Part shown: piece after piece, positions 12,704-49,908 of the stretch
How the letters are laid out: each line of letters starts with the position of its first letter
Position numbering within the stretch: position 1 is the stretch's first letter
IMG/VR virus record: IMGVR_UViG_3300037247_000961
Location: 1 to 64,000 of that record
Origin: a virus
Strand: one strand, 5' to 3'
Length of the DNA stretch: 64,000 nt
Program-made: the position numbers and the translations under genes
Notes under the pieces: generated by a model
Told to the model about the DNA's origin: nothing
Database searches by the model: none
Seen by the model: only the letters and a program-made list of their open reading frames with translations

Positions 12704-13090
12704 CTAGAACGGCCCAAGGACCGTAGTCAACTTGCCCTTCAGCGTGGCGGCGTTGAACGGTTTGACAATGTAGTTGCTGACACCGGCCTCTTTGGCCGCA
12801 AGCACGTTCTCGCTTCGGCTTTCAGGCACAATCATGATGAAGGGAGTTTCCTTGAGCCCAGCGGCGGCGCGTACTTCCTTGAGGAATTGGAGGCCGCTCA
12901 TCGGCTCCATGTTCCAATCGGAAATGACCAAGCCATAGGGCTTGTCGCGCAGCTTCTGGAGCGCCACACTGCCGTTGGTGGTTTCATCCACATTGTTGAA
13001 GTCAAGCTGCCAGAGCAAGTTCCGGATGATCCTGAGCATGGTCTTGTAATCGTCCACGATCAGAATCGGCGTACACTTCACATCGTTCAT
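12704..13090 (-). CDS. cheY: CheY-like response regulator receiver
   Basis: 128 residues covering one receiver domain and nothing else. The acidic pair D13/D14, phospho-acceptor D58 (SDWNME), Y107 and K110 (SNYIVKPF) align with CheY. The sequence type (SENVLAAKEAGVSNYIVKPF) is the alphaproteobacterial flagellar CheY. The conserved Thr (E. coli T87) that relays phosphorylation is Val (V88), and the next Ala is Pro. It has its own promoter and no histidine kinase nearby. It may bind the flagellar motor or compete with host CheY; this is inference. Confidence 0.9.
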   Translation of the reverse strand: MNDVKCTPILIVDDYKTMLRIIRNLLWQLDFNNVDETTNGSVALQKLRDKPYGLVISDWNMEPMSGLQFLKEVRAAAGLKETPFIMIVPESRSENVLAAKEAGVSNYIVKPFNAATLKGKLTTVLGPF

Positions 13091-14174: not shown

Positions 14175-14394
14175 CATAATCCTCCGGGCCTGCCGGATAC
14201 ACGGTTTCAGCCTTCCCGTCCCATCCCGATACCAATGGAAAGCCTCGCCACTCCCTATGGCCATCGGGTATTGGCGACGTCGGCCGACGCACGGCCGGAT
14301 CGCCGGGCTGGCACTCGACATACATCTGTTCGAAGCGTGTGCCCTTACGGCCTACGTTGGCACGGATTCGCGTCGTTGGAACCATGATGTTCAT
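14167..14394 (-). CDS. 75-residue hypothetical protein
   Basis: Begins MNIMVPTTRIRANVGRKGTR. The start overlaps the upstream stop as TAATG. Basic N-terminus, acidic C-terminus, no known motif. Confidence 0.55.
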   Translation of the reverse strand: MNIMVPTTRIRANVGRKGTRFEQMYVECQPGDPAVRRPTSPIPDGHREWRGFPLVSGWDGKAETVYPAGPEDYDD

Positions 14395-14900
14395 TAGGGA
14401 CCACCTCTAAAGTATGTGGAAGGCGCAGCTTGCGGAGGCTTAGGTGGCCGCGCCCGCTCGGGCGGAGGATTAACAAACTCCGGCGACTTTGGACTCCATA
14501 AATCAAAGATAAACCGCATCCTAAATTTTCCCTTGCGGCCCTTACGCTCTGATTCCTTCCGTTTCTCTTGCATCTTTTCAGCTTGCTTATCTGACCACGG
14601 TAAGGAAATTGCACGAGGCTGTCCCGGCCCGGCATCGATATAGAGATATATCGCTTCGCCTCGCACCAACTTGAACGATAAGACCACCACGTCGCCGTCC
14701 AAGCGTACCGCTGCCCAATGCGGTCGGTGCCAGCCGAGCGTCTCTAGCGATGCCGGGCCGAGCGCGCCAAGGATGACAATGAATCCAAGGACCGCCAAGC
14801 CCCGGACTCGTGTCTCCCGTCGCGACCAAATAGTTGCCCACGTATACAGCGCAAACAGTACTGCAACGCCGCAGAAAATGAGAAAGGCCTGTCCCATCAT
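14394..14900 (-). CDS. membrane protein of the proton-channel cluster
   Basis: 168 residues: two N-terminal membrane segments (about residues 4-24 and 33-53), a soluble middle domain, a very basic stretch (QEKRKESERKGRKGKFRM) and a proline-rich tail. It overlaps by ATGA with the ExbD/MotB-like gene, which in turn overlaps the ExbB/MotA-like gene, so all three are probably made together. It may be a third subunit; no family recognised. Confidence 0.6.
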   Translation of the reverse strand: MMGQAFLIFCGVAVLFALYTWATIWSRRETRVRGLAVLGFIVILGALGPASLETLGWHRPHWAAVRLDGDVVVLSFKLVRGEAIYLYIDAGPGQPRAISLPWSDKQAEKMQEKRKESERKGRKGKFRMRFIFDLWSPKSPEFVNPPPERARPPKPPQAAPSTYFRGGP

Positions 14901-15484
14901 AGATCGTCTCTTACCCCACTTGTATCACGTAATGATTCAAACAAATGACTCATAGATCCAGGAACAAGTTTGCCTTTCCGGTCCAGTTCAAATCGAACCA
15001 TGGTGATTTCTTCTTTCGATGCAACCAGTTCGGCCTCAGTATAGGTAATCGTCGTCATTGCTCCATTGGGCTTGACCTTAACCGTGACTTCCAATTTGAC
15101 CAGGACCGGTAAGTACCCGCCGCACTTGTAGCAGTGGACATTGATGATGTATTCACCGGCCGGCACCCCTCGGGTATAGGCGTTTTCATAATTGATGCCA
15201 GACAAATCCGATCCAGTGCCAGTATCATCGCGCAACAAATTCCAAAGTTGACCACTCTTGTTTGAATAGCCTACCGGCACAATTTCCTCCGGTCCCCATA
15301 ACCAAAGGTCAACGTCGATATTGCCGTTCGGCCATACAATGTGGACGATGACATTGCCAGGCGGATTGGATTGATCTTCCATTGCAGGAGGGTTGAGATG
15401 CGGAAGCATCCACACTACAAAGACAAAGAACGCCATGACCAAAAGCAACGTGAAATCACGCCATGTTGTGCCACCTGCGTTCAT
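14897..15484 (-). CDS. ExbD/MotB-like subunit with DUF2135-like domain
   Basis: 195 residues. A short cytoplasmic N-terminus ends in Asp10, directly before a single membrane helix (DFTLLLVMAFFVFVVWML). This matches the N-terminal anchor of TolR, ExbD and MotB, where an Asp at this place carries protons. The periplasmic part (IDVDLWLWGP, then GVPAGEYIINVH) resembles DUF2135/YfaP-type beta domains rather than the usual ExbD or OmpA-like domain. It is coupled by ATGA to the ExbB/MotA-like gene. Family assignment rests on topology and motif, not strong similarity. Confidence 0.55.
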   Translation of the reverse strand: MNAGGTTWRDFTLLLVMAFFVFVVWMLPHLNPPAMEDQSNPPGNVIVHIVWPNGNIDVDLWLWGPEEIVPVGYSNKSGQLWNLLRDDTGTGSDLSGINYENAYTRGVPAGEYIINVHCYKCGGYLPVLVKLEVTVKVKPNGAMTTITYTEAELVASKEEITMVRFELDRKGKLVPGSMSHLFESLRDTSGVRDDL

Positions 15485-16023
15485 GGGGTATCAACACAGT
15501 CCGCAATCATGCACGCCATGGCCGTGCGTAATATACGCTGATTGATCTCGTTCCACATGCTAAAGACTGCACCGACAATGGTTGTATTCAGCGCCACACG
15601 CATTCCATCCATCAATGGCCCAATGGCGTCGGAGACTCCGCGGGCACTGCCAAGGCTCACTTCATTAACGCCGGACAATGCATAACTGAATCCGATAATT
15701 GTTCCAAGCAACCCGAGCCCCACAAGCCAGCCGCTTACGTCCCGGAGCCACGCCACTTTGGCCCAAGCCTTATCGACGGCCCCTGGCGGCATGTGCCATC
15801 CTCCCTCTTTCTTGATGCGATTTAACTCGTATCCCCCGCGGAGTATGCGACGAAAAGTAGTCGCCCAACATGCGACGAACAACAAGGCAATGATTGACGT
15901 GATGTAAGTAAAATCGTTCCCGTAGAGCGGTTGAATCCAGCCATGGTCGAATGCCATGACGCCGGCCAGCACTGCAAGTAAATTGACAAGTAGGAAACGG
16001 TAAATGAGTAAATTGTTAAGCAT
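15481..16023 (-). CDS. MotA/TolQ/ExbB-like proton channel protein
   Basis: 180 residues with membrane segments near residues 8-26, 37-56, 98-116 and 140-158. The GLGLLGTIIGFSYALSG segment and the ALNTTIVGAVFSMW segment match the two core helices of TolQ/ExbB/MotA, including the paired threonines of the last helix that line the proton path. It is shorter than host MotA and close to ExbB/TolQ in size. Together with the 15484-14897 product it could form a proton-driven machine in the inner membrane. Its role in infection is unknown. Confidence 0.75.
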   Translation of the reverse strand: MLNNLLIYRFLLVNLLAVLAGVMAFDHGWIQPLYGNDFTYITSIIALLFVACWATTFRRILRGGYELNRIKKEGGWHMPPGAVDKAWAKVAWLRDVSGWLVGLGLLGTIIGFSYALSGVNEVSLGSARGVSDAIGPLMDGMRVALNTTIVGAVFSMWNEINQRILRTAMACMIADCVDTP

Positions 16024-16917: not shown

Positions 16918-17454
16918 CCTTAATTTTGCCATTTGACAACGGATGATGGCCTCAGCATTACCGACCGGTAAAAAGCGCCGCAGGTCGGAAGGTATCTTTC
17001 GGTTCTCCAGCCGGATTGCATCTTTGACCGGCATGCCACAAAAGTCGATACGGTCATTGATACGTTCGGCTAAAGTCAAAACCATCTGCTCGCCAACGTC
17101 GTAGCAGCCTTCATTCTCTCGAATGTTCGGCCACGGGCGCTCATGTAATGGCGGCAAATCAACGGAGAAGCCTTCAGGATTACAGATATCAGCCTCTATC
17201 TCAATTGGCCCAAAGCGATTGGACTTGACACCTTGGCCATTGCCGCTGCGAAAATCTGGGAAGCGCAGCCCTCGAATAATGTCATTGATGGAGCATTCAT
17301 TGATTCCATCAGGATCTGCCATAAATGCAAATTCACATCCATCCTGGACATACACATACGGCCCCAATTCACTCAGGACGCGAGCATCACCAGCATCCTG
17401 CGTTTCCAGGCGGACACCTTCCGTGTCCCGAGAGATTTGAACAATGGCACTCAT
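16897..17454 (-). CDS. 185-residue hypothetical protein
   Basis: A globular protein with no recognised motif (starts MSAIVQISRDTEGVRLETQD). ATGA overlap with the SprT-like gene upstream suggests joint translation. Unknown function. Confidence 0.6.
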   Translation of the reverse strand: MSAIVQISRDTEGVRLETQDAGDARVLSELGPYVYVQDGCEFAFMADPDGINECSINDIIRGLRFPDFRSGNGQGVKSNRFGPIEIEADICNPEGFSVDLPPLHERPWPNIRENEGCYDVGEQMVLTLAERINDRIDFCGMPVKDAIRLENRKIPSDLRRFLPVGNAEAIIRCQMAKLRLPSASH

Positions 17455-18041
17455 TTCACAAAATCCTCCATCTCATCACCCCACGGGTCCACGGGTCGTC
17501 CATGTTCCTCCATGACGCGCGGTGAAATCGTCACTGTGTAGCTGCGGTCATTGACACTCATCAAACGGCTCCATTTGTAGGGGTAAACCCGCGCACTATC
17601 CTTCTTCGTCATGGCGGCGTGCGGGTACGGCCCAAGGCTGTCAGCAATCCCAATCAGCAATCCCTCCAAGGCACTGCCCTCCTCGGCGTAGGTCGTGGTC
17701 ATCTTGCCGGCGAAACCAATCTCCTTGGCCAATGTGCGGAACGGGCCTTTATGCCCATGCTCGCAACCGACAACGGCGTGGATCATTTCATGCAACAGGA
17801 TATCCAACACCTTGACCGGCTGTGCCTCGGTCGGACTGATGTACATCTGTGTCGTCTCATCAGCACTGGCATTCGGCGACCAGCACTGGCCAATCGCCCG
17901 TCGTGAGGCCTTGGGCCAACCGCACGCGGCTTGAAGCTTGACCGGCACCTTGTGACCGTGGCTTGTGAAAAATTCCTTGCCCAAGTGACCGATGGCGTCA
18001 ACCAACCAGCCCTCGCGCGTAGTGTGGTTTTTGGTGGTCAT
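17451..18041 (-). CDS. SprT-like zinc metalloprotein
   Basis: 196 residues. HEMIH at residues 84-88 is the HExxH zinc site of the SprT/Wss1 family; surrounding LLHEMIHAVVGCEHGHKGPF fits SprT-like phage proteins. The C-terminal part carries a beta-rich region with few cysteines. The family includes DNA-protein crosslink proteases; the role in phages is unknown. Confidence 0.75.
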   Translation of the reverse strand: MTTKNHTTREGWLVDAIGHLGKEFFTSHGHKVPVKLQAACGWPKASRRAIGQCWSPNASADETTQMYISPTEAQPVKVLDILLHEMIHAVVGCEHGHKGPFRTLAKEIGFAGKMTTTYAEEGSALEGLLIGIADSLGPYPHAAMTKKDSARVYPYKWSRLMSVNDRSYTVTISPRVMEEHGRPVDPWGDEMEDFVK

Positions 18042-27603: not shown

Positions 27604-28874
27604 TTTACCTCCGCAAACATACCAGCGTCCATCTGTATTCGCTTTCTAGCCATGTCCGCATATTCCGGGTTCAACTCAATCAGGATGGCACTGCGCTTGA
27701 GCCGGTCGGCAACCAGCCCCGTGGTCCCGGCTCCACCGAAGGGATCAAGCACGGTGCAGGGCACCTCTGCCAAGCCGCAGTCGCATGATGGGCTCCAGCC
27801 GACTATCTGCGTTTTGTAGCGATCACCAGCTTGTGTGCGGTCGCCGCCGTCTCGGTCTCGTGTTTTACCACGATCAAAAGCACTGCCCTTAAGATCATCG
27901 CGCAACTCGGTTGTTCTCTCCACGTCTCGCATCCACAGCGCCCCGCACTTCGGACAGCAACCTTTCTCACTCGTGCCCGCCTTGATACAGGGCTCGATCA
28001 GCGCCGGGGGGAAAGTGGCAAAGTGGGCACCAGGGAAAGGTTGCGTGGCCACGGTCCAAACATTGCGTATGTTGCGACCTAACTTCTCCTGCCGCATAAG
28101 TTTCTCGTGTTGATTATTAAGTGTCTTTTTATGTGACCGATTACCTGTTAATGTATCCTTAGGTCCACCTGTCTGGTTCTCAAAGTTGGGTTGGCTTAGG
28201 CGCGCAATCGAAACATCACTATAGGGCTCTTTCACAGCTTCAACGTCGTAGTAATACCGCTGCGACTTCGCCAATAGATATATCTTCTCGTGGCTTGACG
28301 TAGGTCGGTCAGTGACACTCTCGGGCATGGGATTCGGCTTGTGCCAAATAATCTCCGAGCGCAGCCACCAACCGTCCGCTTGCAAGGCCAGTGCCACACG
28401 GGCAGGCATCATGCAAAGGTCTTTTTCTTTAAAAGTGTCATTTCTTGTTCGTTCCAATACCGACAATCCTCGATTGGCGGATTCACAATCCAGCCCCCTA
28501 GCATTTCCAAGTGACGCATCAGCATTGTCTTTTTGCCAAGCACGAGAACGCTGTCCCCTGCCGTAAATATCTCCAAGATAGGCATGTTCCTTTCCTCCAT
28601 GTCCGCTACCGCCCTTTGCAGGATTACGGTAATAACTATCCCCAAGATTGAGCCAAACCGTTCCATCCTTCCGCAATACTCTACGCACTTCCTGAAACAC
28701 ATTGACTAATGCATCAATATAATCTTGAGGTATTTGTTCAAGGCCTATCTGCCCATCCACACCATAATCCCGTAAACCCCAATAAGGCGGACTTGTGACG
28801 ACACAATGCACAGACTCATCCGCCAAACTAGAAAGCTTCTCTTTGGCATCTCCGACAAGAATTTTTACGCTCAT
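27600..28874 (-). CDS. DNA methyltransferase, SPPYWGLRDYG type
   Basis: 424 residues from the ATG overlapping the polymerase stop (ATGA). TSPPYWGLRDYG is the S/DPPY motif of N4-cytosine or N6-adenine methylases, and DPFGGAGTTGLVA the SAM-binding motif at the C-terminus. Residues about 310-380 hold a Cys pair (CCPKCG) and a second CDCG, a probable zinc ribbon in the target-recognition part. Third methyltransferase of the window. Confidence 0.85.
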   Translation of the reverse strand: MSVKILVGDAKEKLSSLADESVHCVVTSPPYWGLRDYGVDGQIGLEQIPQDYIDALVNVFQEVRRVLRKDGTVWLNLGDSYYRNPAKGGSGHGGKEHAYLGDIYGRGQRSRAWQKDNADASLGNARGLDCESANRGLSVLERTRNDTFKEKDLCMMPARVALALQADGWWLRSEIIWHKPNPMPESVTDRPTSSHEKIYLLAKSQRYYYDVEAVKEPYSDVSIARLSQPNFENQTGGPKDTLTGNRSHKKTLNNQHEKLMRQEKLGRNIRNVWTVATQPFPGAHFATFPPALIEPCIKAGTSEKGCCPKCGALWMRDVERTTELRDDLKGSAFDRGKTRDRDGGDRTQAGDRYKTQIVGWSPSCDCGLAEVPCTVLDPFGGAGTTGLVADRLKRSAILIELNPEYADMARKRIQMDAGMFAEVN

Positions 28875-30865
28875 TTTGCTTCGCCCCAACTTGGACCGAT
28901 TTCCACGTCCACCTTGAACGGGACAAGTGCGGGTATAGTGTTCCGCATAATGCCGGCTATATGTTCACCCTCGGCGCGATCCGCAACAGAGTTGCCCGCT
29001 TCATCATGCACCTGGAGCATCAACCAATAGCCAGCAGCATCGATTTCCACGATGGCTTTCTTCATTTGATCTGCGGCAGAACCTTGAATCACTCGGTTAA
29101 AAGACTTATGCGTCCATACATACTTGTTCCCTTCCTTGACAAAATGAAGGTGCCGGCCAAGGATCGTAGTCACATAACCTCGTTTGTTAGCACGCTTCTT
29201 TGCAGCATTGGCAACTTTGCGAATGAACGGTGCATGCTCATCAAACTTGTCAAGGATGACCTGCCCTTCCACGCCAGCGGCGCGCCATACGAATCCTTCA
29301 CCAAGTTCATCATGCAAAGCATCGGCCTCTCCCTGAGTTTCGAAATGCTGAATTTTACGATTATCCCAGTTTCCCCAGGCACATGCCCAACGGGTAGAAA
29401 GTTTCAGTTGGTCACAAAGATGTGCTCCACCTTCACCATAACACAGCCCAAGGTAAATCGTTTTGGCGGGGTAGCGGTCCAAGCCTGTCAATTTTGCCAT
29501 CATGGCATGATTATCGAGCGTCGGGTCGTCGTGGTAGCGTTGCGCCATTTCCTTGGCACCAGGGAAGTCCATCAGCGCTGCAAAGTGTGTCGTCCAACGA
29601 GGCTCCTGTTGGCTGTAATCTGCAACACACCACTGTGCACCTTCCTCCGGGAGGAATATTTTTCGCCACTCGCCGGCAATCTCCGGATCTTTCTCCGGGT
29701 TGGGCTGTTGCTGCAAGTTAGGGTTCGTGGCTGAAATGCGGCCGTAGCGAACGCCCTTCTGTTCACCTGTTTCCGACTCTCGGGCAACCGGGTTAAAGGT
29801 GCAGTGGATTCGGCCATTTGTCATATGAGACCGCATCGATGCAGCGAAGGTCGTGCGCAGCTTGTTCACTTTGCGTGCACGGCCCAAGGCCTTAGTCACG
29901 GGATGATCCACCATCCCGAACACTTCCTGGGACACGCTCTTTTTACCGTTGCTTGTCGTGGGCAACTCGATCCCAATATACTCCAGCGCTGGAACCAAGG
30001 ACTCCGCCTTCCAGACGTTGCCTACTTCGATGTTAACGCCGGTCGCCGTCCGCACATAGTCCAGGGCCTTGGCCTCTTGCTTAAGTGACCAATCCTCAAT
30101 TTGTGATAGCTTATCCTGATCAATCCGAACGCCGCGGCGCCGCATGCGAACGAGTACGGGTAAGACGCGACTTTCCAGATCGTAAATACCCCAGAGATCT
30201 TTCTCTTCTATCTGGCGCTCCTGTTGTCTTAGGATAAGCAGGGGCTGCCGTGCGTCGGCCTCGGCGTATTTCCCAACGTAGCGGGCCGGCAGGCGCCACA
30301 GGCCCCCTTTGGGGTCTACCCCATAGGCCGAAGCCGCCTCCCTGAGTTTCGTTTCGTCTTTGCCAGGCCGCCCGTGACGTTCGGCAATGTTCTGGAGGCT
30401 GTAGGAGTTGTGCAGTTCATAAATCAAAGGATCAGCAATTTGAATATCCCTAAAGAATCGTATGGCAGGGAAATTGATTCCAGCTTCCCAAAAATAGTCC
30501 AGGTCATAGCTCAAATTCATTCCTACAATGTCACCGTCGAACGTGGCTCCTTGTTCCCGCATGTACCCGAGCACTTGCTCCTTGTCCAAGTTGTCGCCGC
30601 CTTCGTGAGCGAAGGGGAGATAGTAGGAAGGCCCATCCTCAATGGCGAAGCTAATGCCCACCATGTAGGCGCCGCGGCGTACCCCAACCCCCAATTCCTT
30701 GAGATGGCGGTCGTTGGTTTCACTATCAATGCCAACGCGCTTTGCGCCCTTCCACGATGGCAAATCGCTCATGGACGGAAGCTTCCAATTGCACTCTGGC
30801 TCAATCAAAGGCAACTGCAGAGGCTTAAGCTGCATCCCAATGCGGCCATCGAGGACGTCAGGCAT
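28871..30865 (-). CDS. family A DNA polymerase
   Basis: 664 residues from the ATG at 30865 (GAGAGGAACC upstream). A 3'-5' exonuclease starts with GIDSET (D47, E49). The polymerase part has motif A VADYSQQEPR, the YLGLCYGEGG block of motif B and motif C LQVHDE near residue 620. No 5'-3' exonuclease domain, as in most phage replicative family A enzymes. It copies phage DNA and probably works with the primase-helicase and clamp loader. Confidence 0.95.
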   Translation of the reverse strand: MPDVLDGRIGMQLKPLQLPLIEPECNWKLPSMSDLPSWKGAKRVGIDSETNDRHLKELGVGVRRGAYMVGISFAIEDGPSYYLPFAHEGGDNLDKEQVLGYMREQGATFDGDIVGMNLSYDLDYFWEAGINFPAIRFFRDIQIADPLIYELHNSYSLQNIAERHGRPGKDETKLREAASAYGVDPKGGLWRLPARYVGKYAEADARQPLLILRQQERQIEEKDLWGIYDLESRVLPVLVRMRRRGVRIDQDKLSQIEDWSLKQEAKALDYVRTATGVNIEVGNVWKAESLVPALEYIGIELPTTSNGKKSVSQEVFGMVDHPVTKALGRARKVNKLRTTFAASMRSHMTNGRIHCTFNPVARESETGEQKGVRYGRISATNPNLQQQPNPEKDPEIAGEWRKIFLPEEGAQWCVADYSQQEPRWTTHFAALMDFPGAKEMAQRYHDDPTLDNHAMMAKLTGLDRYPAKTIYLGLCYGEGGAHLCDQLKLSTRWACAWGNWDNRKIQHFETQGEADALHDELGEGFVWRAAGVEGQVILDKFDEHAPFIRKVANAAKKRANKRGYVTTILGRHLHFVKEGNKYVWTHKSFNRVIQGSAADQMKKAIVEIDAAGYWLMLQVHDEAGNSVADRAEGEHIAGIMRNTIPALVPFKVDVEIGPSWGEAK

Positions 30866-30881
30866 AATGGTTCCTCTCGGG

Positions 30882-31370
30882 TTATGCGTCCACAATGCGA
30901 ATAGATCGAGGTTGATCCGGCGTGTAAGTGATAAAACCACGCTCAGTCAGACGTCTGACGAAATTAGTGACGCATCCCACGTATTTTAATCCAAGACCCT
31001 TGGCAATCTCAGCGTAACTTGGCGAATAGCCATTGATATTCCGGTAATTGATAATGAATGCTAGGGCCTTCTTTTGTCGTTTCGTAATTCCACCGTTCCG
31101 TCGCGAATCAGGATGGCGCATATCATAGGCCATCCTGGAGCACTCAATGCAGTAGTTAGTTGAAACCGTCCGCTTCGCCATATGACCATACAAGCAAGGA
31201 TCACCGGTAGAATACTGCTTCAATCCACGGTCGCGGGCCTCTTTCCGGCAAGTTGCCGCACGCTTCCGATGGTCACGGGCTTCCTTCCAACGATTTAACT
31301 CATGTTTTTGATGCACTTTCTTTATGTTGGTTAGCCCTTGGGCGTATTCGACGGAAGTGTTTTTGCTCAT
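30882..31370 (-). CDS. zinc finger plus LexA-like HTH protein
   Basis: 162 residues. Residues 55-80 hold a CLYGH...CIEC zinc module typical of phage HNH or homing-type proteins, and the C-terminus (KALAFIINYRNINGYSPSYA, then EIAKGLGL) is a LexA-type DNA-binding winged helix without the LexA protease part. Probably a DNA-binding regulator. ATGA overlap with the gene upstream. Confidence 0.65.
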   Translation of the reverse strand: MSKNTSVEYAQGLTNIKKVHQKHELNRWKEARDHRKRAATCRKEARDRGLKQYSTGDPCLYGHMAKRTVSTNYCIECSRMAYDMRHPDSRRNGGITKRQKKALAFIINYRNINGYSPSYAEIAKGLGLKYVGCVTNFVRRLTERGFITYTPDQPRSIRIVDA

Positions 31371-47383: not shown

Positions 47384-47650
47384 TTAGAATCCGAATTTGG
47401 ATTTAATGCCGAGACCTATCGCCGTCGCTGTAACGCCGATGATAATAACGACGATGGTCATTAAGCTTTTGTCTTGTATGCGCTCAATACGCAAACGCCA
47501 CTCTCTTAAGTGTAGCATATCCTTCTGGAATTCTAAAGGATTTTCTGGATCGATGCCGTGAGAAATAAGCGTCCGTTCCACGGCCTGGCAAGCAGCATCG
47601 TAGGCGATCTCACGCAAAAGGGCTTCGACTTCGGGAGTTACGTCCTTCAT
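47384..47650 (-). CDS. 88-residue C-tail-anchored membrane protein
   Basis: A cytosolic helical part (NPLEFQKDMLHLREWRLRIE) and one membrane segment at residues 63-82 (LMTIVVIIIGVTATAIGLGI). ATGA overlap with the lipase gene. Could be a holin or holin partner in the lysis module. Confidence 0.6.
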   Translation of the reverse strand: MKDVTPEVEALLREIAYDAACQAVERTLISHGIDPENPLEFQKDMLHLREWRLRIERIQDKSLMTIVVIIIGVTATAIGLGIKSKFGF

Positions 47651-48300
47651 GGTACGACCCTTATATACTTGGCGACACTGTGACGAGACACGGGGCCAGG
47701 CCAGCCTCCACTGTTGATCTTAACCTGGTTCTTCGGGTGATCAAAGCCAGGAATCGGAGGCCAAAAGGGGGCAAAGTCATAGCGATTCGTAAAGCGGAAA
47801 ACAGGGCAAGCGATGCTCGCTATAGCTTCATCGCTCAAACATTTGGGGGCACCATAGGTGATAAGCCCAGCCAACTTATGATCATCAATCCCGCCTGAGG
47901 CAACCCATGAGGCATAAAGTGTTGCAAGGCAACCACCCATGGAATGACCAGTGACGATTAATGGAATCGGAGTTGGAATACGCTCTGCAAAATCTCTGGC
48001 AGGCCCACGGATATAGGAGAAGTGTCGAGCATAGCCACTGTGGGCTTTACCTTTTCCAATCCAGTCCCTTGGGACACCGAAATTGGAAATAAGGTCTCGA
48101 AGTTTTGCTCGTGATACCTCGGTGCCTCGGAATACGAGATATGCGTGTGTAGGCCCAAGGACGAGCATGCCCTGTGAGCCCATGATATCGAAGGGCTCAC
48201 AAACCATGTCCATATCCATGGTATCCAAGCCAAGATTGACGTGGGGCCATTCTTCATAGATTAAGCCTGAGAGAATGGCCCCAGTCTTGAAGTTTGTCAT
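47647..48300 (-). CDS. class 3 lipase-like alpha/beta hydrolase
   Basis: 217 residues from the ATG at 48300 (TGATG overlap; GTG at 48303 is the alternative). VTGHSMGGCLA puts the catalytic Ser at about 120 in a GxSxG elbow; RYDFAPF and SRHSVAKY supply likely Asp and His. HAYLVFRGT is also typical of the class 3 lipase family. Without signal peptide. It may attack host lipids during lysis or release. Confidence 0.8.
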   Translation of the reverse strand: MTNFKTGAILSGLIYEEWPHVNLGLDTMDMDMVCEPFDIMGSQGMLVLGPTHAYLVFRGTEVSRAKLRDLISNFGVPRDWIGKGKAHSGYARHFSYIRGPARDFAERIPTPIPLIVTGHSMGGCLATLYASWVASGGIDDHKLAGLITYGAPKCLSDEAIASIACPVFRFTNRYDFAPFWPPIPGFDHPKNQVKINSGGWPGPVSRHSVAKYIRVVP

Positions 48301-49115
48301 CACACTATGGGCCTTCCAATGCCCTTGCGCTCATTCGGCGCAACGCCGTCGCGCGTGATGATGTCATACTCGGCCATCCACACAGCCCAATCGCCCGCGC
48401 TGCCGCCATCACCCGGGTATATTAAGTCTAATTCCCCGGTCTGTGTGCCGCCGTAGGGTCCAGTGCCACCCCCGCCGCTGATGAATCCTGGCATAGGTAA
48501 CATAGTTTCCGTGGAAGACAATGTCGGTCCGCCGGTTAGAGCGCGCAAAGTATTACGGTTCATTGCCGTTCGATCCTCGCAAGCTTTCCAAGCGGCGACC
48601 TTTTGCATTTCGCCGGCTTCAACCGCCGTAAGGACTCGATTGATATCCTTCATGACCGCATGCCCCTTGACCGTCAAGACCATAATCCGCTTGGCCACGT
48701 TCAAGAAGTTCGTCACGGTTGGTCCGCCAAGCAAGATTTGGGATAATCGGGACTTGTCCACGTCTTTCAAAACGGCCGCAAACAGTAGGGCCACATCGGC
48801 AGTGTCCGTTTCGATCCAGAACGGATCGGTCATGCGCGCCTTGTCAATGGCGCCCTGCAACAATGCCAAATGCCCGAGTGCTCGTACGGCTTCGGCGCCC
48901 CCGGCCTGTTGGGCCAAGTCCGTCATCACTTCGACCGCGCCGGCTGCAAGCCAGCACACCCGGAGATCTCGGTTCTCATTGCTCACGTCGACGACGGCAC
49001 CTGCCACTTGTTGCCCAAGAGAACCGAGCGGTATTTTGCCATCGTTTGGAACAATGCTACAGGCCCCAAGGGCCAGCATGCAAAGTCCGATGAAAAGTGC
49101 CTTGAATGTATTCAT
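48300..49115 (-). CDS. lipoprotein
   Basis: 271 residues. A signal peptide ends in the lipobox LALGAC (Cys19), so the product should be lipid-anchored. The rest is mostly helical with a glycine-rich stretch (FISGGGGTGPYGG). Coupled by overlaps to the lipase and to a small membrane protein. Could be a spanin-like or superinfection-exclusion lipoprotein; not assignable. Confidence 0.65.
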   Translation of the reverse strand: MNTFKALFIGLCMLALGACSIVPNDGKIPLGSLGQQVAGAVVDVSNENRDLRVCWLAAGAVEVMTDLAQQAGGAEAVRALGHLALLQGAIDKARMTDPFWIETDTADVALLFAAVLKDVDKSRLSQILLGGPTVTNFLNVAKRIMVLTVKGHAVMKDINRVLTAVEAGEMQKVAAWKACEDRTAMNRNTLRALTGGPTLSSTETMLPMPGFISGGGGTGPYGGTQTGELDLIYPGDGGSAGDWAVWMAEYDIITRDGVAPNERKGIGRPIV

Positions 49116-49384
49116 GATTTTGTCTCCTTGTCGGATTGAGGTGCGCGTTCCCCTGTATCGAATGCAGGGTGTTGCACAATTGGCGCCTTTGTCGTAAAGC
49201 GCCGGATTACGTTGACCAATGCCGTGGAAACCACGCCAAAGGCTGCTGTGAGGGCCGCATACTTGATCTCTGACAAGTCAGGCGGAACGAACTGCCACGA
49301 TTCGCCGTAGGTCATCCAGATCGTTGAAATCGCCAGCCCGACACTGCCGGGGGCAATCTGATCTTGTAATTGTTCCTTGTTCAT
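49112..49384 (-). CDS. 90-residue membrane protein, holin candidate
   Basis: ATG at 49384 with GGTGGAGGAAATTG upstream. A hydrophobic segment (YAALTAAFGVVSTALVNVI) and a weaker one near residue 15 (VGLAISTIWMTY), then a charged tail. Position among cell-wall and lipid-degrading enzymes makes it a holin candidate. Confidence 0.55.
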   Translation of the reverse strand: MNKEQLQDQIAPGSVGLAISTIWMTYGESWQFVPPDLSEIKYAALTAAFGVVSTALVNVIRRFTTKAPIVQHPAFDTGERAPQSDKETKS

Positions 49385-49908
49385 TTCAATTTCCTCCACC
49401 AGAAGTCGTGGCCAGGCCATTCTTCTGAAATCCATATGTAGTTGCCGCGCTGGCGCTTACGCCAGAGGCTCTCGGTACGGTTGTCCAGGATCACTGCGTC
49501 GCCATCGTCTAGATACACCAAGAGGACGCAATGGTAAACTTGGCTCAACCCAATTTGGCAAATAGCCAGGCGCAACGCCCCGCGGGGGTAGCCCCGCGCC
49601 ACAAGAGCTTGTAACTTATGGACGGCATAGTCGTCACAATCCCCAACACGGAATCCGTTGACCAATTTCCACGGCCCCCAGACGTCCTTGCCCGGGTCAT
49701 CTGCCACATACATGGCAGACCGGTTGACTTGCTCAGTTACCTCGGCCAATGCCCACTTCAAATGGGATGAATTGGCCAACCCATCCGGGCGCACCTTCCA
49801 CATTGAAAGATGTTGGTAGCGAGGCAGCTTCATCATTTCGCGATAACCTTTCGGCGCCCATGCGAAGATGGGCGTCGCGATGCCAATGGCCTGTGCTAAC
49901 GATGGCAT
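49381..49908 (-). CDS. transglutaminase-like cysteine protease
   Basis: 175 residues. GDCDDYA (Cys91), YHCVLLV (His126) and ILDNR (Asp142) are the catalytic triad of bacterial transglutaminase-like cysteine proteinases (BTLCP, the LapG family). Such enzymes cut proteins in the periplasm; the role in phages is not known. ATGA overlap with the small membrane protein downstream. Confidence 0.75.
   Translation of the reverse strand: MPSLAQAIGIATPIFAWAPKGYREMMKLPRYQHLSMWKVRPDGLANSSHLKWALAEVTEQVNRSAMYVADDPGKDVWGPWKLVNGFRVGDCDDYAVHKLQALVARGYPRGALRLAICQIGLSQVYHCVLLVYLDDGDAVILDNRTESLWRKRQRGNYIWISEEWPGHDFWWRKLK

Follow-up and report, generated by a model that had tools for sequence, protein, structure and literature searches.

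A three-gene set carried by phages and bacterial chromosomes that appears to be an undescribed relative of the Tol, Ton, flagellar and Zorya motors

Swimming, gliding, the uptake of nutrients, the upkeep of the outer membrane and defence against phages are all driven by known motors of the MotA/TolQ/ExbB superfamily, each branch of which has put one engine to a new use. In the Zorya systems, both the tail of ZorA and the binding of peptidoglycan by ZorB matter (PMC11890865). Non-flagellar, MotAB-like A/B pairs carrying assorted unknown domains have been described in a survey of generic ion transporters (GIT); the portion of that survey covered here mentions no viral copies, omits Zorya from its trees, and does not contain the A-B-C family that is the subject of this work (PMC12505986).

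The gA-gB-gC locus and its products

The window analysed here, a stretch of 64,000 bases, covers positions 1-64000 of a viral record that is 94,430 bases long. Reading down its minus strand from position 16023, three genes follow in the order gA, gB, gC, all of them overlapping (Table 1). The preliminary description of this DNA had placed three open reading frames with ATGA overlaps here, and had read them as a TolQ/ExbB/MotA-type channel core, a single-pass partner with an Asp at its membrane helix, and a third membrane gene. The frames and the overlaps, at 15481-15484 (gA/gB) and 14897-14900 (gB/gC), are exact, and the three readings are borne out by the relatives of each protein. The genes around the trio in the record are for phage tail, replication and nucleotide metabolism, and the trio is therefore phage-borne.

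Table 1. Features of the trio, with positions in the window, and of the lipoprotein-like genes that follow gC in chromosomal loci, with positions in the locus named.
Feature	Position	Strand	Basis
gA, 180 aa, MotA/TolQ/ExbB-type channel subunit	15481..16023	-	PF01618, relatives, PDB profile matches, hydropathy
gA third helix, residues 101-119, core motif GLLGTIIGF	15667..15723	-	Pfam match 15553-15723; conserved G107, G111
gA fourth helix, about residues 138-160, ALNTTIVGA	15544..15612	-	T148 conservation
gA Thr148 codon	15580-15582	-	Thr in 135/142 relatives
gB, 195 aa, single-pass partner with beta-sandwich outer domain	14897..15484	-	AlphaFold2 model; 146 unique relatives
gB membrane helix, residues 3-30	15395..15478	-	Model and hydropathy
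gB Asp10 codon, candidate ion-carrying residue	15455..15457	-	Conservation near helix start
gB beta-sandwich, about residues 42-170	14975..15361	-	Model and invariant residues
gC, 168 aa, two membrane helices, b-b-b-a-b domain, proline-rich C-terminal tail	14394..14900	-	Model; conserved third gene
gC membrane helices, residues 2-25 and 32-54	14739..14897	-	Model; hydropathy of relatives
gC small b-b-b-a-b domain, residues 69-130	14511..14696	-	Model
Lipoprotein-like genes after gC	L197 8162-8857; L216 10858-11568; L217 11428-12216; L218 8384-9085; L224 10772-11485

Several other genes of the window were also recorded. A DNA polymerase A gene (28871-30940, minus strand) shows about 55-60% identity to its relatives in phage Simon, Pseudomonas phages PaMx11 and Ab18 and Bordetella phage MW2. 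A full-length CheY-like protein made up of a single receiver domain is encoded at 12704-13090 (minus strand), 1.3 kb downstream of gC. Against solved structures it matches enteric CheY best (3.8e-36, with 3e-15 for CheY2, 1p6q), and it keeps the CheY positions Asp57, Tyr106 and Lys109, the position of Thr87 being occupied by Val; such a phage-coded CheY could bias host swimming. The relatives of the polymerase, together with an enteric-type CheY, point to no one host for the window phage. An SprT-like gene 1.4 kb upstream of gA (17451-18041, minus strand) scores 21.7 bits in Pfam, under the cut-off, and matches phrog_6361 at 5.6e-34. A class 3 lipase gene (47647-48303; Pfam 9.8e-16) lies in a minus-strand group spanning 47384-49435 that also holds small membrane proteins and a putative lipoprotein, and this group is possibly an unrecognised lysis or release block.

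Taken alone, window gA is a borderline member of the Pfam family MotA_ExbB (PF01618), with 22.2 bits by hmmscan and 22.9 bits in the genome search against a cut-off of 22.9. PF01618 was matched by 41 of 48 diverse gA relatives (E <= 0.01; best 5.5e-10), and a profile of the gA family matched the solved chains of ZorA (4.1e-8), MotA (7.7e-7), TolQ (6e-4) and ExbB (0.02). On sequence grounds, gA belongs to the MotA/TolQ/ExbB superfamily. Hydropathy analysis gives four helices in 102 of 142 relatives, and gA probably has four membrane helices and a short cytoplasmic loop; the loop between helices 2 and 3 has a median length of about 17 residues in phages and 59 in chromosomes. A long cytoplasmic tail is absent from the window protein, which stops at residue 180, and from its relatives, where a median of 70-83 residues follows the GxxGT motif within the matched region. 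The core is strongly conserved, with G107 present in 138, G111 in 137 and T148 in 135 of the 142 relatives, and we take the position of Thr148 to be that of the conserved Thr of TolQ/ExbB. The idea that gA is a unique gene, which an empty single-sequence scan of viral sequences would have allowed, was discarded when alignment-based scans found relatives.

The AlphaFold2 model of gB (mean pLDDT 91.9) has a helix at residues 3-30 followed by an eight-strand beta-sandwich. A single membrane helix is found in 140 of the 146 gB relatives and Asp10, near the start of this helix, is Asp in 133 of them; in ten chromosomal relatives of one lineage the Asp stands four residues earlier instead. Residues W51, D57, D59, D86, D87, G89 and E100 are invariant (146/146), a pattern which suggests that they may form a working site, perhaps for a metal. 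gB has a C118xxC121 pair in common with the group of phage 16-3, and some other relatives lack it. Locus L201 (9018-10254) has two tandem gB genes, the second lacking the membrane Asp, and no gA profile match nearby.

The outer part of gB had been likened in the preliminary description to DUF2135 and set apart from the normal ExbD or OmpA-like domain. The second part of that statement stands and the first does not: among 46 gB relatives there was no profile match to ExbD/TolR (PF02472) or to an OmpA-like domain, and none to DUF2135 up to E = 0.1. Across nine trio-bearing genomes PF02472 found no match at the trio, though eight of the nine have ExbD/TolR matches elsewhere. The MotB plug profile gave one weak match (E = 0.059) among the 46 relatives, and the nearest weak profile matches of gB are to the C-terminal domain of a subtilisin-like protease (0.017) and to the membrane segment of ZorB (0.73). 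Assignment of gB as an ExbD, OmpA or MotB protein was rejected on the lack of ExbD/TolR and OmpA-like matches.

The gC model (mean pLDDT 88.5) comprises two helices, the b-b-b-a-b domain and the proline-rich tail, and two membrane helices are found in 123 of 134 gC relatives. A positive-inside count over the family is ambiguous as to the side of the membrane on which the small domain lies. gC has no Pfam, NCBIfam or relevant PDB profile match, and in Foldseek searches of the PDB neither the model of gB nor that of gC retrieved a structure at E <= 0.001. Searched against viral models, gC matched two unnamed entries (E 2.5e-5 and 4.6e-4), and its fold resembles that of a 143-residue transmembrane protein of Rhizobium phage RHph_Y68 (E 1.6e-3, TM 0.58/0.66).

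The trio in phages and in bacterial chromosomes

The search for the same trio in other phages that had been proposed earlier was successful: the trio occurs in many phages that are unrelated to one another, and of the 92 distinct viral loci reached by alignment-based scans, 80 carry A, B and C by profile. The 80 complete loci comprise 49 with the arrangement ABC, 29 PABCM, one PABC and one CPAB; among the incomplete loci, seven show, where A or C would be expected, a diverged form of it, and most of the others are truncated by a contig end. A scan seeded with A agrees with that seeded with B, all of the loci that it found also having B. In one viral sub-lineage (L097, L103 and L104) the A-B-C layout is kept and the A protein, encoded just upstream of gB, is without the GLxGT motif. 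Between related phages, dN/dS is 0.09-0.28 for A, B and C, and all three are under purifying selection. The recurrence of the trio, the agreement of the two scans and these ratios show that the arrangement is not a chance one.

Twenty-seven of 50,697 annotated phage records hold gB, a count returned identically by three different queries, and all are Rhizobium or Sinorhizobium phages; the features listed under the matches in these records bear no functional name. The first gB matches were to phage 16-3 (p040) and its relatives. In phage 16-3 the genes run p036 (protease), p038 (A), p040 (B) and p042 (C), and the layout of 16-3-like phages is a trypsin-like protease, A, B, C and a metallophosphoesterase-like gene, the series being interrupted by homing endonucleases and small genes. 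A general tie of the trio to the metallophosphoesterase-like gene was considered and set aside; it is strong in 16-3-like phages only, so we take it as their layout. Rhizobium phages of several lineages carry the trio, and carriers include both temperate 16-3-like phages and the 150-kb Pootjesviridae, in which it is flanked by gyrase A on one side and a late sigma gene on the other. Two annotated 16-3-like phages have a lysozyme gene a few kb ahead of the cassette; a lysis-gene neighbourhood as a general rule was dismissed, since it fails beyond some 16-3-like phages. The position of the trio differs between phages and gives little clue to its purpose. A few contigs of the viral collection that fall next to cell copies may be misassigned host DNA, and the claim that phages carry the trio therefore rests first on the 27 isolate records.

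Many of the phage copies are paired with an exported trypsin/HtrA-like protease. In 16-3-like phages this protease belongs to Trypsin_2 and bears an apparent export signal, RHph_N3_19 has a Trypsin_2 gene at a distance of 2.3 kb from the trio, and in the marine C-P-A-B locus the protease is HtrA-like, with Trypsin_2 plus PDZ_2. Residues His81 and Ser180 are invariant in 14 members, three of which have an apparent lipoprotein signal. No protease of the 16-3 type is visible to the profile in the window or in the rest of its record.

The trio is also found in bacterial chromosomes. A gB match was obtained in 61 of 385 sampled genomes of the class of a Rhizobium genome (E <= 1e-6, a few of them weak) and in 29 of 274 sampled genomes of the class of genome G401 (E <= 1e-15); the listed genomes of the two samples do not overlap, and the G401 sample is therefore probably from another class. 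As a mostly single-copy gene, gB is present in 68 of 81 genomes in one genus, in 29 of 32 in a streamlined family and in 3 of 3 in a third group, and the trio is near-core in streamlined genomes of 0.9-2 Mb. Thirty chromosomal neighbourhoods have the look of ordinary chromosome and are common within lineages and different between them. A prophage origin of the chromosomal copies in general was rejected on these neighbourhoods, several of which have annotated neighbours. By contrast, within the genus of a Rhizobium genome gB occurs in only 3 of 120 genomes; one of these copies lies clearly among 16-3-type prophage genes, by the protease, and the other two apparently do so, one of them next to a fragment of the protease where the stretch ends and the other with a flank too short to tell. 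Nearly all of the nine trio-bearing genomes have other MotA_ExbB genes, and the branch that separates trio-A from their TolQ/ExbB/MotA-type genes has support of 97/93, with a long-branch warning. The chromosomal trio is a vertically inherited gene set, distinct from TolQR, ExbBD and MotAB. Neither this gene set nor the protease pairing was noticed in the preliminary description, because databases are needed to see them.

Phage and cell copies are mixed in the gB tree, where well-supported branches force at least six changes of the phage label, and there have therefore been several transfers. The window gB falls in a group of 43, nearly all from phages, with moderate support (83). In at least five chromosomal loci a lipoprotein-like gene, faintly DUF3108-like in one, directly follows gC (Table 1), and it is a candidate fourth component of the cellular system.

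A proposed machine and its use by phages

We consider it probable that gA, gB and gC together make up a single ion-driven machine of the inner membrane. Observed in its favour are that gA belongs to the superfamily, that the motif residues are conserved, that A, B and C constantly occur together and are under purifying selection, and that there is a distinct chromosomal counterpart. In such a machine a ring of gA would enclose a gB dimer, as in MotA/MotB, ExbB/ExbD, TolQ/TolR and ZorA/ZorB, and ions crossing at the interface of the gA Thr and the gB Asp would turn or shift gB. The beta-sandwich of gB could then do mechanical work in the periplasm, and gC, in the place of TonB or TolA, might pass on or regulate that work. 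The 5:2 assembly, the ion, the direction of force and the part of gC as a transducer are inferred by analogy with the known relatives. The loss of GLxGT in L097, L103 and L104 counts against this reading, since it would be odd were the channel indispensable.

For the use that phages make of the trio, our tentative choice, made with modest confidence, is that they bring their own energised envelope machine to guard or remodel the envelope of the infected cell, with superinfection exclusion as the likeliest form. We favour this because many copies travel with an exported protease, which recurs in two gene arrangements, and because the trio is found in temperate and virulent phages alike; the lack of a profile-visible protease in the window record counts against it. 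Most known carriers infect a host genus without a chromosomal trio, and the phage trio must therefore work alone there, with no host copy for it to poison or replace. This also bears on the closest rival, a somewhat unlikely one in our judgement, by which the phage supplies a host-type envelope energiser that sustains outer-membrane integrity or uptake during infection. The interleaving of chromosomal and phage copies in the gB tree, with its forced label changes, would fit a physiological role of this kind, as would the lipoprotein-like gene right after gC in several cell lineages. However, a chromosomal copy is generally absent from Rhizobium, which the phages of most of the 27 records infect, and no transporter or receptor gene keeps the trio company.

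The remaining explanations appear weaker. An anti-phage unit of the Zorya kind, in which the motor senses the envelope disturbance caused by another phage and a partner kills or cuts DNA, is unlikely: ZorA models are the best matches of gA, and anti-phage defences are known on phages and prophages, but the curated cut-offs for ZorA are widely missed, gA has no long cytoplasmic tail and gB no OmpA-like domain, no effector-like neighbour recurs in the neighbourhoods compared, and near-core presence in 0.9-2 Mb genomes would be unexpected for a defence system. It is equally improbable that the motor acts like an energised spanin late in infection, by pulling on the outer membrane or opening it. 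Such help in lysis or release would suit the lysozyme gene before the cassette in two annotated phages and the protease that often adjoins, but not the place of the Pootjesviridae trio beside DNA gyrase and a late sigma gene, that of the window trio among small genes past the replication block, or vertical inheritance in chromosomes. Very improbable, finally, is interference with motility by gA and gB acting as decoy or replacement flagellar stators. The similarity of gA to MotA, the CheY-like protein encoded by the window phage and the fliG gene that follows the trio in one chromosome all point that way; against them stand the missing large cytoplasmic loop of gA and OmpA-like domain of gB, the absence of a CheY comparable to the window's from the other phage trio loci, and the restriction of the fliG adjacency to that one genome.

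In its widest form the proposal is that A-B-C joins flagellar stators, ExbBD, TolQR, gliding motors and ZorAB as one more class of ion-driven 5:2 motor, marked by a beta-sandwich head and a third subunit of its own, a standing part of the envelope in many Pseudomonadota which several phage lineages have adopted as an energised guard, often armed with a protease; taken as a whole we hold this to be possible but doubtful. The branch is widely phage-borne and is near-core in certain groups of bacteria; in some streamlined genomes, genes that are near-core yet unnamed thereby gain a likely mechanism. Phage 16-3 and Sinorhizobium meliloti are an old laboratory pair, so that use of an ion-driven envelope machine by a phage is directly testable.

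Comparison with known motors

The closest relatives of the window trio are p036-p042 of phage 16-3 and the corresponding genes of its relatives, which share the order protease-A-B-C. They differ in a shorter A and in the homing endonucleases and small genes between the subunit genes, and they are annotated as p-numbers or hypothetical proteins only. No description of the trio was found in the mainly open-access literature covered on phage-coded ExbB, TolQ, MotA or stators, on Zorya, on phage 16-3, on the Pootjesviridae or on phage proteases.

With ZorA/ZorB the trio shares a two-protein motor core; ZorA is the best-scoring solved relative of gA, and the gB helix aligns, very weakly, to ZorB. 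It differs in lacking the long tail and the OmpA-like domain, in having the extra gC, and in that no effector was seen. Against the curated ZorA models gA scores 23.2, 15.8 and 15.8 bits, where the cut-offs are 100, 190 and 500, and a PADLOC run on the trio genes gave no match for gB and gC. The link to Zorya that had been raised at the outset does not hold, and membership was rejected on these scores together with the absence of the tail and of the OmpA-like domain.

TolQ/TolR/TolA and ExbB/ExbD/TonB resemble the trio in having a ring subunit with a conserved Gly/Thr core, an Asp-bearing single-pass partner and a third membrane subunit. In contrast to these systems, gA, which widely misses the TolQ cut-offs, is probably a four-helix protein with a short loop, gB carries a beta-sandwich and has no match to PF02472, and gC has no profile match to TolA or TonB and two helices, not a single N-terminal one. 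MotA/MotB share with the trio a four-helix A subunit and an Asp near the start of the B helix, and differ in the large cytoplasmic loop and the OmpA-like domain, neither of which the trio has; the adjacency to fliG is limited to a single genome.

The Asp-bearing helix is thus present and the profile, score and domain features of TolR/ExbD, MotB, ZorA and TolA/TonB that gave a clear outcome are not, and we therefore file the trio under no named system. As the preliminary description had thought possible, it appears to be an undescribed system, akin to the Tol, Ton, flagellar and Zorya motors, which had been overlooked and which phages have taken up.
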